DNA of 64,000 bases from the NCBI GenBank assembly GCA_902778275.1, contig CACYXE010000003.1, positions 62,001 to 126,000 on the forward strand, read 5' to 3'. This DNA is from Oscillospiraceae bacterium (lineage in GTDB: Bacteria > Bacillota > Clostridia > Oscillospirales > Oscillospiraceae). Below the pieces are notes generated by a model. The model made no database searches. It was not told the DNA's origin and worked only from the letters and a program-made list of their open reading frames with translations. Below, in pieces: positions 51,586 through 56,846 of the stretch. Every line of letters begins with the position of its first letter. Position 1 is the first letter of the stretch. A program made the translations under genes and the position numbers.

Positions 51586-52428
51586 TTATTCTTCAATGAT
51601 TGACCGCAAGAGTTCCGGCCATCGGGTGAGAACTTCACGTCCGACGATTACTTCATCAACAACACCGCTATTCATTGCATCGATCAAACGGCACAAATAT
51701 GATTTCCCTTGAACCCACCATGTTCTATAGGCATCAATAAACAGAACGTGATACACCTTTCTGCCTGTCCTATCATATAGTTCCTTGAATTCAAAGCCGT
51801 CTAACTGTGTTTCATATACACCATCGGCAACACGACTGCCGAACGTGGTTGCATAATAGTATTCTTTGATTTCCCATACCATTTTAGGGCTTTCAATGCT
51901 GGGATATGCGCCGTCAAAGCGCCTTGATGAAGCGCCGATTATCCTGTTGTTATCGTCCCAAACATAAACAAGCCCGCGCGGGTCATCATCAAAGCCCAAA
52001 GAGCGAGTGTTTCCCGTTATTTCTCTTATTGTCTTTTCAGCAATTATGTTTATGATTGCAGTAAAGAAAGCAACCTGCTTCATTGCCCCTTTCTGCTTAT
52101 TCAACGGAAGTTTGCAATAATAGTTTCCGACACTGTGAAGTATTTCCCAATTTCTGAATTCTTCACTTGCAGTTTCAGCGTCCATTAACATACTTTCGGC
52201 AAACCTGTTTAGCAAATCCGCACGCATTTTTGAATATTGTGCGGCACAAACTATAGTATCTTCAGAAGCGTTTATGCCGCGTTCCATGCAAAGCGCTTTG
52301 ATTGTACTTATGGGATATTTCTTGACAAGTCCTTCACCGCGTTCTGTATAGCCGAGGTTTTCAGAGATGTATTTAACAAATGCCCAAAAAGAAGCATCCA
52401 TGCCCTGAAATCTTTCAAATGCCAGCAT
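51586..52428 (-). CDS. Putative type II restriction endonuclease
   Basis: A 280-residue soluble protein, AT-rich in codon use compared with its neighbours. The candidate PD-(D/E)XK site is DGAYPSIESPKMVWEIKEYY near 170-189, with Asp and the E-x-K on successive strands. It has no clear similarity that I can name. Its restriction role is deduced from the company: a 77-residue controller-like HTH gene overlaps its start by 14 bp, and a divergent Dam-class adenine methyltransferase follows. The recognition sequence is unknown. The gene appears intact. A promoter for controller plus endonuclease lies in the C-box region. Confidence 0.7.
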   Translation of the reverse strand: MLAFERFQGMDASFWAFVKYISENLGYTERGEGLVKKYPISTIKALCMERGINASEDTIVCAAQYSKMRADLLNRFAESMLMDAETASEEFRNWEILHSVGNYYCKLPLNKQKGAMKQVAFFTAIINIIAEKTIREITGNTRSLGFDDDPRGLVYVWDDNNRIIGASSRRFDGAYPSIESPKMVWEIKEYYYATTFGSRVADGVYETQLDGFEFKELYDRTGRKVYHVLFIDAYRTWWVQGKSYLCRLIDAMNSGVVDEVIVGREVLTRWPELLRSIIEE

Positions 52429-52648
52429 CGCTTTCGACCTCCTGAAATAATTTCGATATGCTCATATTAAGCGCGTTGGCCATTTTTCCGATATTTTCAA
52501 GCGAGACATTCCTTTTGCCTAACTCAATATCGCTTATGTATGTACGGTGCAAATCACACATATCAGCAAACTTTTCCTGTGAAATGTCCTTTGACAATCT
52601 GATTTTGCGGACAGTTTGTCCAAAGGCGAACAGTAAATCTTTTTGCAT
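52415..52648 (-). CDS. Restriction-modification controller (C) protein, XRE HTH
   Basis: A 77-residue protein that is almost entirely an HTH_3 domain: FGQTVRKIRLSKDISQEKFA near 9-28, then HRTYISDIELGKRNVSLENI near 34-53. Length and sequence match C proteins of type II systems. These bind C-boxes, delaying endonuclease and limiting methylase expression. It overlaps the endonuclease gene by 14 bp. The ATG at 52648 follows CTAGGAGGTGTCAAGCC. Confidence 0.88.
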   Translation of the reverse strand: MQKDLLFAFGQTVRKIRLSKDISQEKFADMCDLHRTYISDIELGKRNVSLENIGKMANALNMSISKLFQEVESDAGI

Positions 52649-52684
52649 GGCTTGACACCTCCTAGCTTGTTTATTATAATAATG

Positions 52685-52715
52685 TTGCAGACTATGGGTC
52701 TACAGACTATAAGTT
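52685..52715. promoter_or_regulatory. C-box operator with overlapping methylase and controller promoters
   Basis: GACTATGGGTC-TACA-GACTATAAGT carries two C-box-like half operators (minus strand ACTTATAGTC and ACCCATAGTC). The methylase promoter TTGCAG (52685)-17 bp-TATAAG (52708) lies wholly within it. The controller promoter on the minus strand (TAGACC, 18 bp, TATAAT at 52683-52678) borrows its -35 from it. Confidence 0.7.
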
Positions 52716-52733
52716 ACAGAACGGGGTGAAACC

Positions 52734-53591
52734 TTGATTCCTGCTTTGTTAAAATGGATAGGCAATAAACAACGTTTCGCAGAAACGATCATTTCATATA
52801 TGCCGCACAGCTTCAATAACTACTATGAGCCGTTTTTAGGCAGCGGCGCGGTTATGGCAGAATTGCTTTATGCCGATTCAACAATGCTGTTTCCGCATTT
52901 TGAACAGGCGTATGGGAGTGACATATTACCTTTCCTTATTGAGATTTTCAATATTACAAAAGAAAACCCGAAAGCCATTGTTGACCATTATAGAAAAGAA
53001 ATCTCTGAATATTATCAAGACCCCATAAAGAAGTATGATGAAATTAGAGATAGATTTAATGCCGCGCATAACCCCTATGATTTTGTCCTGCTTTCAAGGA
53101 CGTGTTATTCAGGCGTTATTCGCTTTCGCAAGGCTGACGGGTATATGAGCACACCGCGCGGCCCGCACAAGCCGATAAGCCCGGAAACATTTGAAAACCG
53201 TATAACGTTTTGGCATAACTTGTTGCAAAAGGCTTCATTTTCCTGTGAAAGCTATACAGAGTCAATGAAGCGCCCAAAAGAGGGCGACGTGGTTTATTGT
53301 GACCCGCCATATACGCATTCACAAAGCATTATATACGGCGCACAGGAATTTAATATTGATACGTTATGGAAGATGATTGCAGAATGCAAGGAACGCGGCG
53401 CAAAAGTAATGTTGTCAATCAACGGAATGCGGGATTCAAAGAAAAAGGACATTTCCGTAACACCGCCTGACGGACTATTTGAACGCAAGCTATTTGTGAA
53501 TTGCGGAACATCTATGATTGACAGATTACAAAACACCGGAAGGGAAATGAGAGATAAAAAGGTTGACGATCAACTTTTATTGACGTGGTAA
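52734..53591 (+). CDS. DNA adenine-N6 methyltransferase (Dam/D12 class)
   Basis: A 285-residue alpha-class N6-adenine methylase. The N-terminal LLKWIGNKQRFAETI near 5-19 is the D12-class start, motif I is YYEPFLGSGAV near 30-40, and catalytic motif IV is DPPY near 189-192. It protects the host from the endonuclease encoded divergently. The start is TTG 52734, right behind GGGGTG and inside the family's conserved beginning, so no longer form is expected. The promoter is embedded in the C-box. Codon use is AT-rich, in keeping with recent transfer. Confidence 0.92.
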   Translation: MIPALLKWIGNKQRFAETIISYMPHSFNNYYEPFLGSGAVMAELLYADSTMLFPHFEQAYGSDILPFLIEIFNITKENPKAIVDHYRKEISEYYQDPIKKYDEIRDRFNAAHNPYDFVLLSRTCYSGVIRFRKADGYMSTPRGPHKPISPETFENRITFWHNLLQKASFSCESYTESMKRPKEGDVVYCDPPYTHSQSIIYGAQEFNIDTLWKMIAECKERGAKVMLSINGMRDSKKKDISVTPPDGLFERKLFVNCGTSMIDRLQNTGREMRDKKVDDQLLLTW

Positions 53592-53780: not shown

Positions 53781-54581
53781 TTACTTTGCGGTCAGCAGGA
53801 CCTCATCGCTTTCCAGTTGGACACCGGCCAGCTGGGCGAACTTGTCCACAAGCTGCTGCTTGGTCAGCTGCTTTTTTTCCTCGCCGCTGACGTCCAGGAT
53901 GATGCGGCCCTCGTTCATCATGATGAGCCGGTTGCCGTGCTGGATGGCGTCGGTCATGTTGTGGGTGATCATCAGGGCGGTCAGATTGTTCTCGTTGACG
54001 ATGCGGTCGGACAGCTCCAGCACCTTGGCGGCGGTGGCCGGGTCCAGGGCGGCGGTATGCTCGTCCAGCAGCAGGAGTTTGGGCTGCTTGAGGGCGGCCA
54101 TCAACAGGGTGACCGCCTGGCGCTGGCCGCCGGACAGCAGGCCCACCTTGGCCGTCAGCCGGTCCTCCAGGCCCAGGCCCAGGGTCTTGAGCAGCTCGTG
54201 GTAGTCCGCCCGCTCCAGCTTGGTGACGCCCCAGCGCAGCCCGCGCTTATCGCCCCGACGCTTGGCCAGAGCCAGGTTCTCCTCCAACTGCATGTTGGGC
54301 GCGGTGCCCATCATGGGATCCTGGAACACGCGGCCGATGAGACTGGCCCGCTTGTGCTCCGGCAGGGCGGTGATGTCCTGCCCGTCCAGGAGGATGCGCC
54401 CCTCATCCACAGGCCAGACGCCGGCGATGGCGTTGAGCATGGTGGACTTGCCGGCGCCGTTGCCGCCGATGACGGTGACAAAGTCGCCCGGGGCCAGATG
54501 CAGGGACAGATTGCTGAGAGCCTTCTTTTCGTTGATGGTTCCGGGGTTGAAGGTCTTGCTGATGTTTTGGATGTCCAGCAT
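53781..54581 (-). CDS. ABC transporter ATP-binding protein (TrpZ-like, aromatic amino acid type)
   Basis: A 266-residue ATPase. Walker A is GGNGAGKST near 37-45, signature LSGGQRQAV near 147-155, Walker B LLLLDEHTAALDP near 168, and switch His ITHNM near 201. It pairs with the BPD_transp_2 permease and the PF04392-type binding protein encoded upstream, the TrpXYZ arrangement. The ATG at 54581 has AGGGGG within the permease end; the coding sequences are separated by 5 bp. Expression is expected to depend on the leader-peptide attenuator ahead of the binding-protein gene. Confidence 0.92.
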   Translation of the reverse strand: MLDIQNISKTFNPGTINEKKALSNLSLHLAPGDFVTVIGGNGAGKSTMLNAIAGVWPVDEGRILLDGQDITALPEHKRASLIGRVFQDPMMGTAPNMQLEENLALAKRRGDKRGLRWGVTKLERADYHELLKTLGLGLEDRLTAKVGLLSGGQRQAVTLLMAALKQPKLLLLDEHTAALDPATAAKVLELSDRIVNENNLTALMITHNMTDAIQHGNRLIMMNEGRIILDVSGEEKKQLTKQQLVDKFAQLAGVQLESDEVLLTAK

Positions 54582-54586
54582 ATCGT

Positions 54587-55531
54587 TCAGCCCCCTTTCT
54601 TTTTCAGTCTGGCAAAGGAGCTCTTCTGCTGGCCGCGCAGATAGGGGACCGCCAGGAACAGCGCCACCACCACGGCGGTGAACAGCTTCAGATCGTTGGA
54701 GTTGAGCTTCAGCCACAGCACGATGACGATGACCAGGTAGTAGACGATGCCGCCGATGACGGTAAAGCTCAGTGTGCCGTAGAAGTTCAGCCGCTTGCCC
54801 AGGATGGCGCCGCCCAGCACCTCGCCGATGATGACGGCGGCAAGGCCTATGACGATGGCGCCGCGGCCCATGTTGATGTCCGCGAAGCCCTGGTACTGGC
54901 TGAGCAGGCCGCCGGACAGGGCCACGATGCCGTTGGACAGGGACAGGCCCAGCAGCTTCATGTTGTCGATGTTGATGCCCAGAGCCCGGCTCATGGCCGG
55001 GTTGTTGCCGGTGGCGCGCAGGGCGGAGCCCTGCTCCGTGCCGAAGTACCAGTACAATATACTGATAAGCACCAGGGCGAGGATGAGACCGGTCAGAATG
55101 GCGGAGGGGATATTGCGGGACGAGAGCAGCAGCCGATACTTGTCCACGCTGACCGCCTTGTTGGCCGCCATGCCCATGATGTGCAGATTGATCGAATACA
55201 GAGAAAACTGGGTCAGGATGCCCGCCAGGATGGCCGGGATGCCCAGCTTGGTGTGCAGCAGGCCGGTGACCAGGCCCGCCAGCAGTCCGGCGATCGCGGC
55301 CACGATCAGCGCCGCCCAGGCGGGCCAGCCCCCCAGGATCAGCATGACGGTCACGGCGCCGCCGGTAGTAAAGGAGCCATCCACTGTCAGATCGGCTACG
55401 TCCAGCAGCCGGAAGGTGATGTAGATGCCCAGGGCCATGATGCCCCAGATGATGCCCTGCGAAATGCCGCCGGGCATATTTTTAACCAGTTTGAGCAGGC
55501 TCAGAGAAGCAAAATATGCGGATATGCTCAC
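54587..55531 (-). CDS. ABC transporter permease (TrpY-like)
   Basis: A 314-residue permease of the branched-chain/BPD_transp_2 family with about nine membrane helices (starting GISQGIIWGIMALGIYITFR near 22-41). The conserved ADLTVDGSFTTGGAV near 46-60 and LRATGNNPAMSRALGINIDN near 171-190 are the family's cytoplasmic-loop text, including the EAA-like coupling region. The start is GTG 55531 behind GAGGTGTGATCT. A 12-bp stem-loop separates it from the binding-protein gene. Confidence 0.93.
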   Translation of the reverse strand: MSISAYFASLSLLKLVKNMPGGISQGIIWGIMALGIYITFRLLDVADLTVDGSFTTGGAVTVMLILGGWPAWAALIVAAIAGLLAGLVTGLLHTKLGIPAILAGILTQFSLYSINLHIMGMAANKAVSVDKYRLLLSSRNIPSAILTGLILALVLISILYWYFGTEQGSALRATGNNPAMSRALGINIDNMKLLGLSLSNGIVALSGGLLSQYQGFADINMGRGAIVIGLAAVIIGEVLGGAILGKRLNFYGTLSFTVIGGIVYYLVIVIVLWLKLNSNDLKLFTAVVVALFLAVPYLRGQQKSSFARLKKKGG

Positions 55532-55603: not shown

Positions 55604-56602
55604 TCAGCCCTCGATGGCCTCGTAAGTGTCGGGAACCTCGATACCAAGGGCCTCGCAGTTGACGGGATTGTATTTCTTGGCAAAGGGAGCGTACTGGATC
55701 TCCATGGAGGAGACGTCGGCGCCCTCGCTGAGGATCTGAGCGGCCATCTGGCCGGTCACGACGCCCAGGTCATAGTAAGAGATGGACAGGGTGGCCACGC
55801 CGCAGCCGGAGCACAGGCCTTCCTCACCGGCGACGATGGGGACCTGCTTGTTCAGGGCCACGTTGTTGATCAGCTCCGCGTTGGAGGCGGCGGTGTTGTC
55901 GGTGGGGATGTAGAGCACGTCGTTCTCGTCACAGGCGGTGTTGGTGACGGCGGCCACGTCGTTGGAGTCGGCGAAGGTGTAGTCGGTGACGGTGTAGCCC
56001 ATGCCCTCCAGGACGGGACGGATCTCGTCAGCCTGGAACAGGGAGTTGGGCTCGCCGGAGCAGTAGAGCAGGCCCACGTTCTTGGCATCGGGGAACAGCT
56101 CGTTGACGACGCCGGCCAGCTGATCGCCGGGCACGCCGTCGGAGGTGCCGGAAATGTTGATGCCGGTGGCGCCGGACCAGTCGTCAATGCCCAGAGCGGA
56201 GGCATAGTCGGTGACAGAGGTGCCCAGGATGGGGATGGAACCGGTGGCGGCCTGCGCGGCCAGCAGAGCCGGGGTGGCGTTGGCCATGATCAGATCCACC
56301 TCGTCGGAGACGAACTGGTTGCAGATGGTGGCGCAGGTGGCGGAGTCACCGGAGGCGTTCTGCTCGGTGAAGGTGACACTGTCGCCCAGTGCGTCGGTCA
56401 GAGCGTCCTTGAAGCCCTGGGTGGCGGCGTCCAGCGCGGGGTGCTGCACCAGCTGGCAAATGCCGACGGTGTAGCTGGCGCCCTCGGCGGCGGGCTCGGC
56501 AGCGGGCTCGGCGGCCGGGGCGGCCGGGGCGGCGGAGCTGCCGCAGGCAGCCAGCGCGAAGACCATGGTCAGTGCGCAGAGAATAGCGATGATCTTTTTC
56601 AT
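55604..56602 (-). CDS. ABC substrate-binding lipoprotein (TrpX-like, PF04392 type)
   Basis: A 332-residue lipoprotein: signal peptide with lipobox ALAAC (Cys near 20), a short Ala/Pro/Glu linker, then the two-lobed periplasmic-binding fold. The start of the fold, YTVGICQLVQHPALDAATQG near 44-63, is characteristic of the TrpX/ABC_sub_bind group. GVPGDQLAGVVNELFPDAKNVGLLY and a C-terminal VVTGQMAAQILSEGADVSSM also match. It should capture an aromatic amino acid outside the cell. The tyrosine-rich leader peptide upstream argues for tyrosine (or tyrosine and phenylalanine) as the ligand. ATG 56602 follows GGAGGAAAAACAAA. Confidence 0.9.
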   Translation of the reverse strand: MKKIIAILCALTMVFALAACGSSAAPAAPAAEPAAEPAAEGASYTVGICQLVQHPALDAATQGFKDALTDALGDSVTFTEQNASGDSATCATICNQFVSDEVDLIMANATPALLAAQAATGSIPILGTSVTDYASALGIDDWSGATGINISGTSDGVPGDQLAGVVNELFPDAKNVGLLYCSGEPNSLFQADEIRPVLEGMGYTVTDYTFADSNDVAAVTNTACDENDVLYIPTDNTAASNAELINNVALNKQVPIVAGEEGLCSGCGVATLSISYYDLGVVTGQMAAQILSEGADVSSMEIQYAPFAKKYNPVNCEALGIEVPDTYEAIEG

Positions 56603-56648
56603 TTTGTTTTTCCTCCAATTGTTGCGGCGGTTCTCGCGCCGAACGAAT

Positions 56649-56729
56649 AAAAAAACTGCCCGGTCCGTGAAGTCCGTGCAGCGTTCAGATCGTCCGGATG
56701 GGGCCTGTTTCAATTGCAGCACAAACTTC
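56649..56729 (-). promoter_or_regulatory. Transcription attenuator: 11-bp antiterminator versus intrinsic terminator
   Basis: Minus strand. Terminator: CTGCaCGG (56681-56674)...CCGgGCAG (56663-56656), then seven U (56655-56649). Antiterminator: GAAGTTTGTGC (56729-56719), in codons 21-24 of the leader peptide, pairs over 11 positions (two G-U) with GCACGGACTTC (56679-56669), which includes most of the terminator's left arm and its loop. The two folds are mutually exclusive. A further hairpin CTATTAC...GTAATAG lies in the leader coding region. Confidence 0.8.
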
Positions 56730-56790
56730 TATTACCCACTTTAAAGTAGTAATAGGAGTAGTATGCAAAAACAAACAGGAACAGGGCCAT
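56710..56790 (-). CDS. Tyrosine-rich leader peptide of the ABC importer operon
   Basis: A 26-residue peptide, MALFLFVF at the start then AYYSYYYF at 9-16, with five Tyr and four Phe in total. It has an ideal ribosome site (GGAGG at 56801-56797, 6 nt before ATG 56790) and is preceded by its own promoter. Its stop (TGA at 56712-56710) lies just after the antiterminator 5' strand. A ribosome held at Tyr codons 10-15 leaves codons 21-24 free to form the antiterminator; a ribosome reaching the stop covers them, and the terminator forms. It was found by reading the leader, being too short for ordinary gene calls. Function is inferred from the geometry. Confidence 0.8.
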   Translation of the reverse strand: MALFLFVFAYYSYYYFKVGNRSLCCN

Positions 56791-56817
56791 GATGCGCCTC
56801 CGCCGATTGATGCTTGT

Positions 56818-56846
56818 ACTTTAGCACTTTTTGGTGTTGAAGTCAA
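56818..56846 (-). promoter_or_regulatory. Promoter of the leader peptide and ABC importer operon
   Basis: Minus strand TTGACT (56846-56841), 17 bp, TAAAGT (56823-56818). Transcription should start near 56811, 6-10 nt before the leader ribosome site, giving an untranslated leader of about 210 nt to the binding-protein gene. Confidence 0.7.

Follow-up and report, generated by a model that had tools for sequence, protein, structure and literature searches.

Introduction

The trp and pheA operons of Escherichia coli are preceded by leaders that encode a short peptide in which the amino acid under control occurs in runs, that can pair in alternative ways, and that carry an intrinsic terminator before the first gene. 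Here we analyze an element of similar organization in a 64,000-nucleotide stretch of an Oscillospiraceae bacterium genome (the window), located on the minus strand in front of the genes for an ATP-binding cassette (ABC) importer of the TyrX/TrpX type. The present leader differs from the E. coli examples in being clostridial, in its Tyr and Phe codons, in fronting both an importer and an aroF-tyrA operon, and in that none of the leaders tested matched an Rfam family. We read it as a ribosome-mediated transcription attenuator of the trp/phe-leader type, predicted to sense tyrosine (perhaps also phenylalanine) and to act on tyrosine synthesis and import, and assign to this sequence-based reading a probability of about 0.93.

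Regular attenuation by leader peptides has been ascribed to proteobacteria and actinobacteria, and His cases have been described in Firmicutes (PMC2965389); the logic of attenuation in general is also treated elsewhere (PMC9413887). His leader attenuators have been published in bacilli, Eubacteriales and Erysipelotrichales (PMC2965389, PMC9413887); like the present leader they use regular leader-peptide attenuation instead of T-boxes, and they differ from it in their His codons and in their genes, hisS/hisZ and his operons. The reading made from the letters of the window alone (the sequence-only reading) regarded this kind of attenuator as uncommon in Firmicutes, which is a fair description, but given these His leaders it is not unprecedented. 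Tyrosine genes in Firmicutes have been described as T-box controlled (PMC2494555, PMC1262725). Tyr T-boxes occur in this phylum (PMC2494555), and trpX of Streptococcus suis is also under a T-box (PMC9382623). These cases resemble ours in placing a relative of the importer, or tyrosine genes, under RNA control by tRNA charging, but there the RNA binds the tRNA directly and there is no leader peptide (PMC9382623, PMC2494555).

Closer candidates have been reported at aromatic biosynthesis genes. The uORFC-13-1 group comprises 24 examples from Acholeplasma and environmental sequences, in which an upstream open reading frame (uORF) with at least one Phe codon precedes a terminator and aroF (PMC8632094). 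The uORF with its Phe codon, the terminator, aroF and the suggestion of attenuation are common to that group and the present one, whereas the available description includes neither a Tyr run nor an antiterminator, and it is by description only that the two are set apart (PMC8632094). Among five genomes, two candidate uORFs containing Phe and Tyr codons were found at shikimate genes (PMC6429828); they are similar in their aromatic codons and shikimate gene association and different in that the importer goes unmentioned in the available text, and, as compared by text description, they could include a relative of the present family. In Corynebacterium glutamicum, a putative leader peptide with Phe-Tyr-Phe precedes the DAHP synthase gene aroF (PMC4046766); unlike ours, this leader belongs to an actinobacterium and has three aromatic residues, and covariation is not part of the description available. 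In the accessible main text of a later survey of uORF types neither tyrosine nor aroF appears (PMC11109978), and among the literature matches listed there was no tyrosine attenuator in Clostridia, none on an importer, nor the present family in Clostridia. What appears to be new is thus a widespread variant of known attenuation, with Phe/Tyr uORFs at shikimate genes already in print as candidates elsewhere.

Organization of the leader

The leader contains the following elements, all on the minus strand:

56846-56818, minus: promoter TTGACT-17-TAAAGT with an extended -10 (TG before the second hexamer), from a sequence scan; similar boxes lie 5' of the leaders of relatives
56801-56797, minus: Shine-Dalgarno sequence GGAGG of the leader peptide, from the sequence
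56790-56710, minus: leader peptide open reading frame (ORF) of 26 codons, five of them for Tyr (MALFLFVFAYYSYYYFKVGNRSLCCN, then stop), from translation, conservation in relatives and the frame test
56768-56714, minus: 1:2 hairpin, from folding and a consensus form with compensatory changes
56729-56719, minus: strand 2, the 5' arm of the antiterminator (GAAGUUUGUGC), from folding and covariation
56679-56669, minus: strand 3, the 3' arm of the antiterminator (GCACGGACUUC), which doubles as the 5' side of the terminator, from folding and covariation
56682-56649, minus: intrinsic terminator, with its stem at 56682-56655 and U7 at 56655-56649, from folding

This anatomy agrees, with coordinates within one base, with what the sequence-only reading had proposed on this strand: the promoter, GGAGG, the 26-codon frame with AYYSYYYF at residues 9-16, the 11-bp antiterminator and the U7 tract. 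Its terminator, placed at 56681-56649, is present with the U7 tail, while the stem is one base longer by folding. In the 1:2 hairpin, an addition to that reading, the Tyr codons occupy the 5' arm (56768-56745) and strand 2 is contained in the 3' arm (56740-56714). When segments were folded, the antiterminator formed 11 unbroken pairs and two more (-17.3 kcal/mol), and the terminator stem reached -12.7 kcal/mol. The minimum-energy fold of the free full leader combined the 1:2 hairpin over the Tyr codons with the terminator (-57.5 kcal/mol; z -3.53, with none of 200 shuffles equally good). The leader elements observed exceed chance, since relatives in the genus repeatedly show the frame, the Tyr run, the antiterminator and the terminator, with covariation.

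Conservation and covariation in importer leaders

A search for the binding protein of the importer over 60 genomes, including that of the window, gave a match in 34. The leader architecture was present in 20 of the 24 same-genus importer loci with readable upstream DNA (own locus included), two of which (L030 and L041) have Phe-dominant peptides. Contigs bearing the leader were labelled Clostridia, Clostridiales, Oscillospiraceae, Ruminococcaceae or Bacillota, several being of ruminant origin. The usual peptides in relatives are FAYRYYRYF or AAYYYYYYF, and 3' of the peptide run there follow UAAUAG-NN-GUUUGUGCUGC and then GCCGCAC-RGAC-loop-GUGCGGC-U-tract. Phe-dominant peptides were observed on the same architecture in L030 (SGRSFFYF), L041 (KFSFRPFSFSF) and L215 (SYPFFFYF). 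In relatives, too, the promoter precedes the leader, as opposed to the transcription start downstream of 56710 that the sequence-only reading had named as incompatible with its proposal.

Covariation was evaluated in an alignment of 31 importer leaders (A2), from which L016 (near L019), L018 (near L017), L047 (same as L013) and the odd L035 were omitted, and to which L049 was added. In the gapless blocks of strands 2 and 3, 322 of 341 cells were paired, compared with a mean of 287 and a maximum of 305 in 10,000 permutations of the partners, and the four outer variable positions of the antiterminator gave 109 of 124 paired against a permutation maximum of 97; these permutation tests leave relatedness among the leaders uncorrected. 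Sliding the partner strand by 1-2 bases lowered the paired cells to 97-177. The outer antiterminator bases switch together, as GAAG/CUUC, GUCG/UGAC or CGAC, and GCGG/CUGC. RNAalifold, run on the same 31 rows with no structure supplied, recovered the 1:2 hairpin together with the antiterminator helix 2:3, plus three additional pairs (columns 21-23 with 155-157) that were left uninterpreted. Among its 22 pairs, 11 had one or more rows with both sides changed. Cognate 2:3 duplexes were also stronger than non-cognate ones, both in the importer leaders (-20.2 versus -16.5; 0/10,000 permutations), where 27 of 31 were covered, L013, L051, L059 and L061 being omitted for want of a detected terminator and some hairpins being poor (e.g. 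L021, L028), and in the other hits described below, nearly all of them aroF leaders (-18.7 versus -13.7; 0/10,000 permutations), where 68 of 74 were covered after setting aside L252 and L254 as unrelated and six more without a terminator, with poor hairpins in L185 and L218. The check suggested in the sequence-only reading, an alignment across relatives, thus found the aromatic codons and both helices kept, with compensatory changes.

A second copy and the spread of the family

A covariance model built from the 31 importer leaders only (R1) and another that included aroF leaders (R2) were used to search more widely, matches being counted at E-values up to 0.001 with the stricter filters of Infernal. 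Besides the importer leader, R1 identified a second match in the same genome (G000:C1:151687-151810), with the leader peptide MNARFYTAYYYFTVTQR, in front of genes for DAHP synthase (NF006421, TIGR01361), prephenate dehydrogenase (a best match, yet under its cut-off), aroB (TIGR01357) and aroA (TIGR01356), i.e. an aroF-tyrA-aroB-aroA operon. The biosynthetic operon is thus fronted by a further copy of the RNA element, which has an aromatic leader peptide of its own, so tyrosine synthesis and uptake appear to share one sensor design. The sequence-only reading had treated the importer attenuator as a stand-alone case; the leader on the importer holds, and the isolated oddity does not.

Within the genus, R1 matched 75 of 102 genomes, 47 of these more than once. 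According to tblastn, the DNA behind the 123 genus matches encodes the importer in 63 and DAHP synthase in 58; the last two were assigned by eye to an importer cut at a contig end (for a total of 64, which includes the R1 training leaders) and to tyrA. Both importer and aroF leaders are held by 46 genus genomes. At the order level, R1 matched 37 of 394 genomes and 26 of 169 genera (own included), and of the 37 non-own matches 34 preceded aroF, one (L335, from a different genus of the family) the importer and one tyrS; L339 was a weak, unrelated match. R1 was never trained on aroF leaders, and the order-level aroF matches are therefore an independent result. In the tyrS case (L332 157-1599; TIGR00234) the leader lies about 440 bases upstream of the gene, and the synthetase may join the regulon in that genome. 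Searches of the class with R2 matched 30 of 391 genomes (own included); 25 of the 30 non-own matches preceded aroF, and single ones a prephenate dehydrogenase gene (L243), a gene for a chorismate mutase/prephenate dehydratase-type protein (L236) and, with a Phe-rich leader, a PaaK-like (phenylacetate-CoA ligase-like) gene (L340 134-1613; 560 bits, cut-off 646), while L252 and L254 were weak and unrelated. In the phylum, four of 398 genomes matched (own included), the other three lying outside the class and all before aroF.

In other Clostridia the importer is preceded by a second kind of aromatic leader, Phe-rich and about 50 codons long (L070, L076, L096, L099, L116, L119 and L121), in which CCCAUCUG pairs by eye with the terminator CGGAUGGG (CCGUCUG with CGGACGG in L096). 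These leaders were unmatched by R2 in the 19 loci run, and we do not claim them as members of the family.

Codon use was analyzed in 76 leaders outside the importer set, which constitute the fair test since they were chosen by Shine-Dalgarno sequence, start codon and position, ignoring aromatic content. They include 15 genus aroF leaders (own included); L197, L205 and L239 were judged to be in the wrong frame, and L252 and L254 were still in. Tyr codons numbered 311 in the leader frame versus 25 and 80 in frames 1 and 2, and Phe codons 312 (of 1,738) versus 184 and 142 (of 1,662). The frame excess is thus much sharper for Tyr, Phe codons being common in every frame. A Shine-Dalgarno-like site precedes 73 of the 76 leaders and 69 start with ATG, both being favoured by the selection rule. 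The 31 importer leaders, selected partly for aromatic content, gave 126 Tyr codons in frame (of 603) versus 3 and 8, and 97 Phe codons in frame.

The importer and its substrate

The genes following the leader are these:

55604-56602, minus: substrate-binding protein of the importer, TyrX/TrpX type (PF04392), from domain search, nearest-structure and pocket comparison
54587-55531, minus: ABC permease (PF02653), from domain search
53781-54581, minus: ABC ATPase (PF00005), from domain search

By sequence, the solved structure nearest to the binding protein is 6hni, confirmed as CD0873 of Clostridioides difficile. CD0873 binds tyrosine, with Glu263 contacting the hydroxyl and Tyr279 replacing a Gln of the Trp-binding homologue, and its authors credit the tyrosine selectivity to these two residues (PMC6816091). 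Their equivalents in the window protein are Glu260 and Tyr276, and among 114 aligned binding proteins the Glu is kept in 112 and the Tyr in 113. The score against the TrpX equivalog NF041285 was 207.8 bits, below the NCBI cut-off of 390, and the protein is therefore better named a tyrosine-type relative. Uptake of tyrosine, as the sequence-only reading had suggested, is supported by these residues as the probable function of the importer. The importers of the Phe-dominant loci L030 and L041 retain the tyrosine-type pocket residues.

A paralogous binding protein in the same genome (37% match) has Ala at the place equivalent to Glu260. Its importer (L044 230-488) sits under a T-box that scores 71 bits, short of the gathering score of 93, with UGG as the specifier by eye; within one genome, importers of the Trp and Tyr types would then rely on different sensors of tRNA charging. 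The covariance model search found no T-box (RF00230) at the leader or anywhere in the window. In the rest of the genome there were seven T-box matches, two of them over the cut-off, and the genes under them, assigned by eye from protein starts, are valS, asnB, alaS, trpB, the trpX paralogue, pheS and thrS; none of the seven in this genome, which is 84% complete, is a tyrosine T-box. No known Rfam family matched at its gathering score in the window or in 15 importer loci, and when 12 aroF loci were searched permissively, the one match was to a snoRNA and lay outside the leader.

Elsewhere in the window, a divergent pair at 51586-53591 consists of a 280-amino-acid ORF of unknown role (51586-52428, minus) and what by eye is an adenine DNA methyltransferase gene (52734-53591, plus), possibly a restriction-modification pair.

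Proposed mechanism

The leader combines a short ORF with a ribosome-binding site, clustered in-frame codons for the amino acid of the pathway, mutually exclusive antiterminator and terminator helices, the antiterminator being conserved by covariation, and control codons overlapped by strand 1, the pairing partner of strand 2, all of which are features of a classical ribosome-mediated attenuator. On these parts, and on their conservation, covariation, frame and gene context, a scheme can be drawn in which the start site, leader translation, stalling, readthrough and signal are predicted. RNA polymerase would start near 56811 and a ribosome would begin the 26-codon leader. With plentiful charged tRNA-Tyr, the ribosome would reach the stop codon and cover strand 2, allowing the 3:4 pairing and termination in U7 at 56649. 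With charged tRNA-Tyr (perhaps tRNA-Phe too) in short supply, it would stall on the Tyr run and occupy strand 1, so that strand 2 would pair with strand 3 once the latter is made, the terminator would be blocked and the importer genes transcribed. Without translation, the 1:2 and 3:4 hairpins would both form and transcription would stop. The stop codon lies just before strand 2 in some leaders, and in others the frame runs through it; the size of the ribosome footprint would provide cover of strand 2 from the stop codon in both layouts.

Several observations, set out here with the related folding results, weigh against this reading. In equilibrium folds with strand 2 free and strand 4 present, the terminator formed in 67 of 76 leaders and the 2:3 helix in only three, while in the absence of strand 4 the latter formed in 75 of 76, in both cases using an alignment fitted to a model that contains the 2:3 helix. 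The switch therefore needs kinetic priority for 2:3, a form of control also described for the trp attenuator. In the window leader, for which strand 3 was misplaced in the equilibrium set, the antiterminator (-17.5) is stronger than the terminator (-11.4). As isolated segments, the window terminator and antiterminator are unexceptional against shuffles (z -0.98 and -1.42, respectively), and a simple terminator scan did not return the window terminator in its output. To the uncorrected relatedness in the permutation tests must be added that L051 pairs at just five of 11 antiterminator positions. Within the genus, the importers of L024, L029 and L031 (3 of 24) have no leader and that of L035 has an odd Tyr-rich one, and 27 of 102 genomes lack a match, including nine of the 34 with at least 90% completeness and at most 5% contamination (25 matched). 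The roughly 440-base gap before tyrS in L332, the in-frame frequency of Phe, equal to that of Tyr, and the Phe-dominant leaders of L030 and L041 also have to be counted here.

Alternative explanations

This last point leads to the question of which amino acid is sensed, as the equal share of in-frame Phe makes a joint Tyr and Phe signal possible. A general aromatic sensor that responds to charged tRNA-Phe equally or more than to tRNA-Tyr is a tentative alternative, which we would not favour but take seriously: Phe and Tyr codons are level in the 76 leaders and not far apart in the importer leaders (97 and 126 of 603), L041 has six Phe codons and no Tyr and L030 five and one, the class matches reach the prephenate dehydratase-type and PaaK-like genes of L236 and L340, and all aromatic amino acids depend on DAHP synthase. 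Against it stand the far sharper frame excess of Tyr, whose off-frame codons are rare where those of Phe are common, the prephenate dehydrogenase gene in the aroF operon of this genome, the tyrosine-type pocket of the importer, the order match upstream of tyrS and the separate T-box, with a UUC specifier, over the pheS-like gene (gene and codon assigned by eye). A metabolite- or protein-binding RNA (a riboswitch or an RNA-binding antiterminator), with the ORF being incidental, could account for the conserved core GUUUGUGCUGC 3' of the aromatic codons, but this core is explained by its pairing with strands 1 and 3, and the frame specificity of the Tyr codons, the Shine-Dalgarno-like sites and ATG starts (even if favoured by selection) and the absence of an Rfam match make this explanation very unlikely. 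That a chance short ORF happens to lie by an unrelated terminator would fit the unremarkable z values of the isolated segments; in view of the covariation, the RNAalifold consensus, the frame test, the cognate duplexes and the gene context of the genus and order matches, its probability is negligible.

The promoter itself offers another candidate regulatory site:

56843-56818, minus: imperfect 26-bp palindrome ACTTCAACAC-N6-GTGCTAAAGT between -35 and -10, a candidate repressor operator, from a symmetry scan

It has two mismatches to the perfect form (0/100 shuffles), and in its own genome the importer site is the single site for the pattern. Import may therefore carry a repressor besides attenuation. 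Taking this repressor as the chief regulator of the importer, with a minor role for the attenuator, would agree with the 44 of 57 importer promoters that have a window with at least 8 of 10 symmetric pairs (mean 8.49, versus 6.36 in shuffled sequences; the score is that of the best window within ~145 bases, and for some promoters, e.g. G026 and G093, is due to another palindrome), with similar palindromes seen by eye at the leaderless importers L055 and L065, where, as at other importers, ACTTTAGCAC-N6-GTGCTAAAGT overlaps the promoter, and with the two TrpR-family proteins encoded in the genome. We consider it improbable, given that aroF promoters with the same leader lack the palindrome (6 of 45 with at least 8 of 10 pairs; mean 6.58 versus shuffled 6.31) and that operator and attenuator are mutually compatible. 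Of the two TrpR-family genes (L126 1465-1761 and L125 1480-1776), one adjoins a gene read by eye as hisZ, and the other a methyltransferase-like gene. The palindrome misfits both the published HisR consensus, cacTTTA-N6-TAAAgtg, and that of TrpR, and neither was retained as its regulator. A wider operator regulon was discarded: at one mismatch, 20 of 41 genus genomes matched versus 13 of 41 for a reversed control pattern, and sites away from the importer are therefore near background.

Implications

Taken together, these results probably reflect a hitherto unannotated leader-peptide attenuator family with specificity for tyrosine, alone or together with phenylalanine, that would act as a regular control on the supply of aromatics across many Clostridia. 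A single RNA design, of common origin, would serve both the operon of DAHP synthase and the tyrosine importer; it would also occur twice at tyrA-type genes and once each at tyrS and at a gene of the prephenate dehydratase type. It would work in a genome where T-boxes serve other amino acids, and at the importer a repressor-like operator would precede it, as in E. coli trp. If true, this would be a first well-supported instance of classical attenuation tuned to tyrosine. The leader family may also help to annotate aromatic metabolism in uncultured Clostridia, with three of the 67 non-own order and class matches judged unrelated, and the presence of one attenuator design on tyrosine synthesis and uptake beside T-boxes would make the choice between ribosome-based and tRNA-binding sensors testable.

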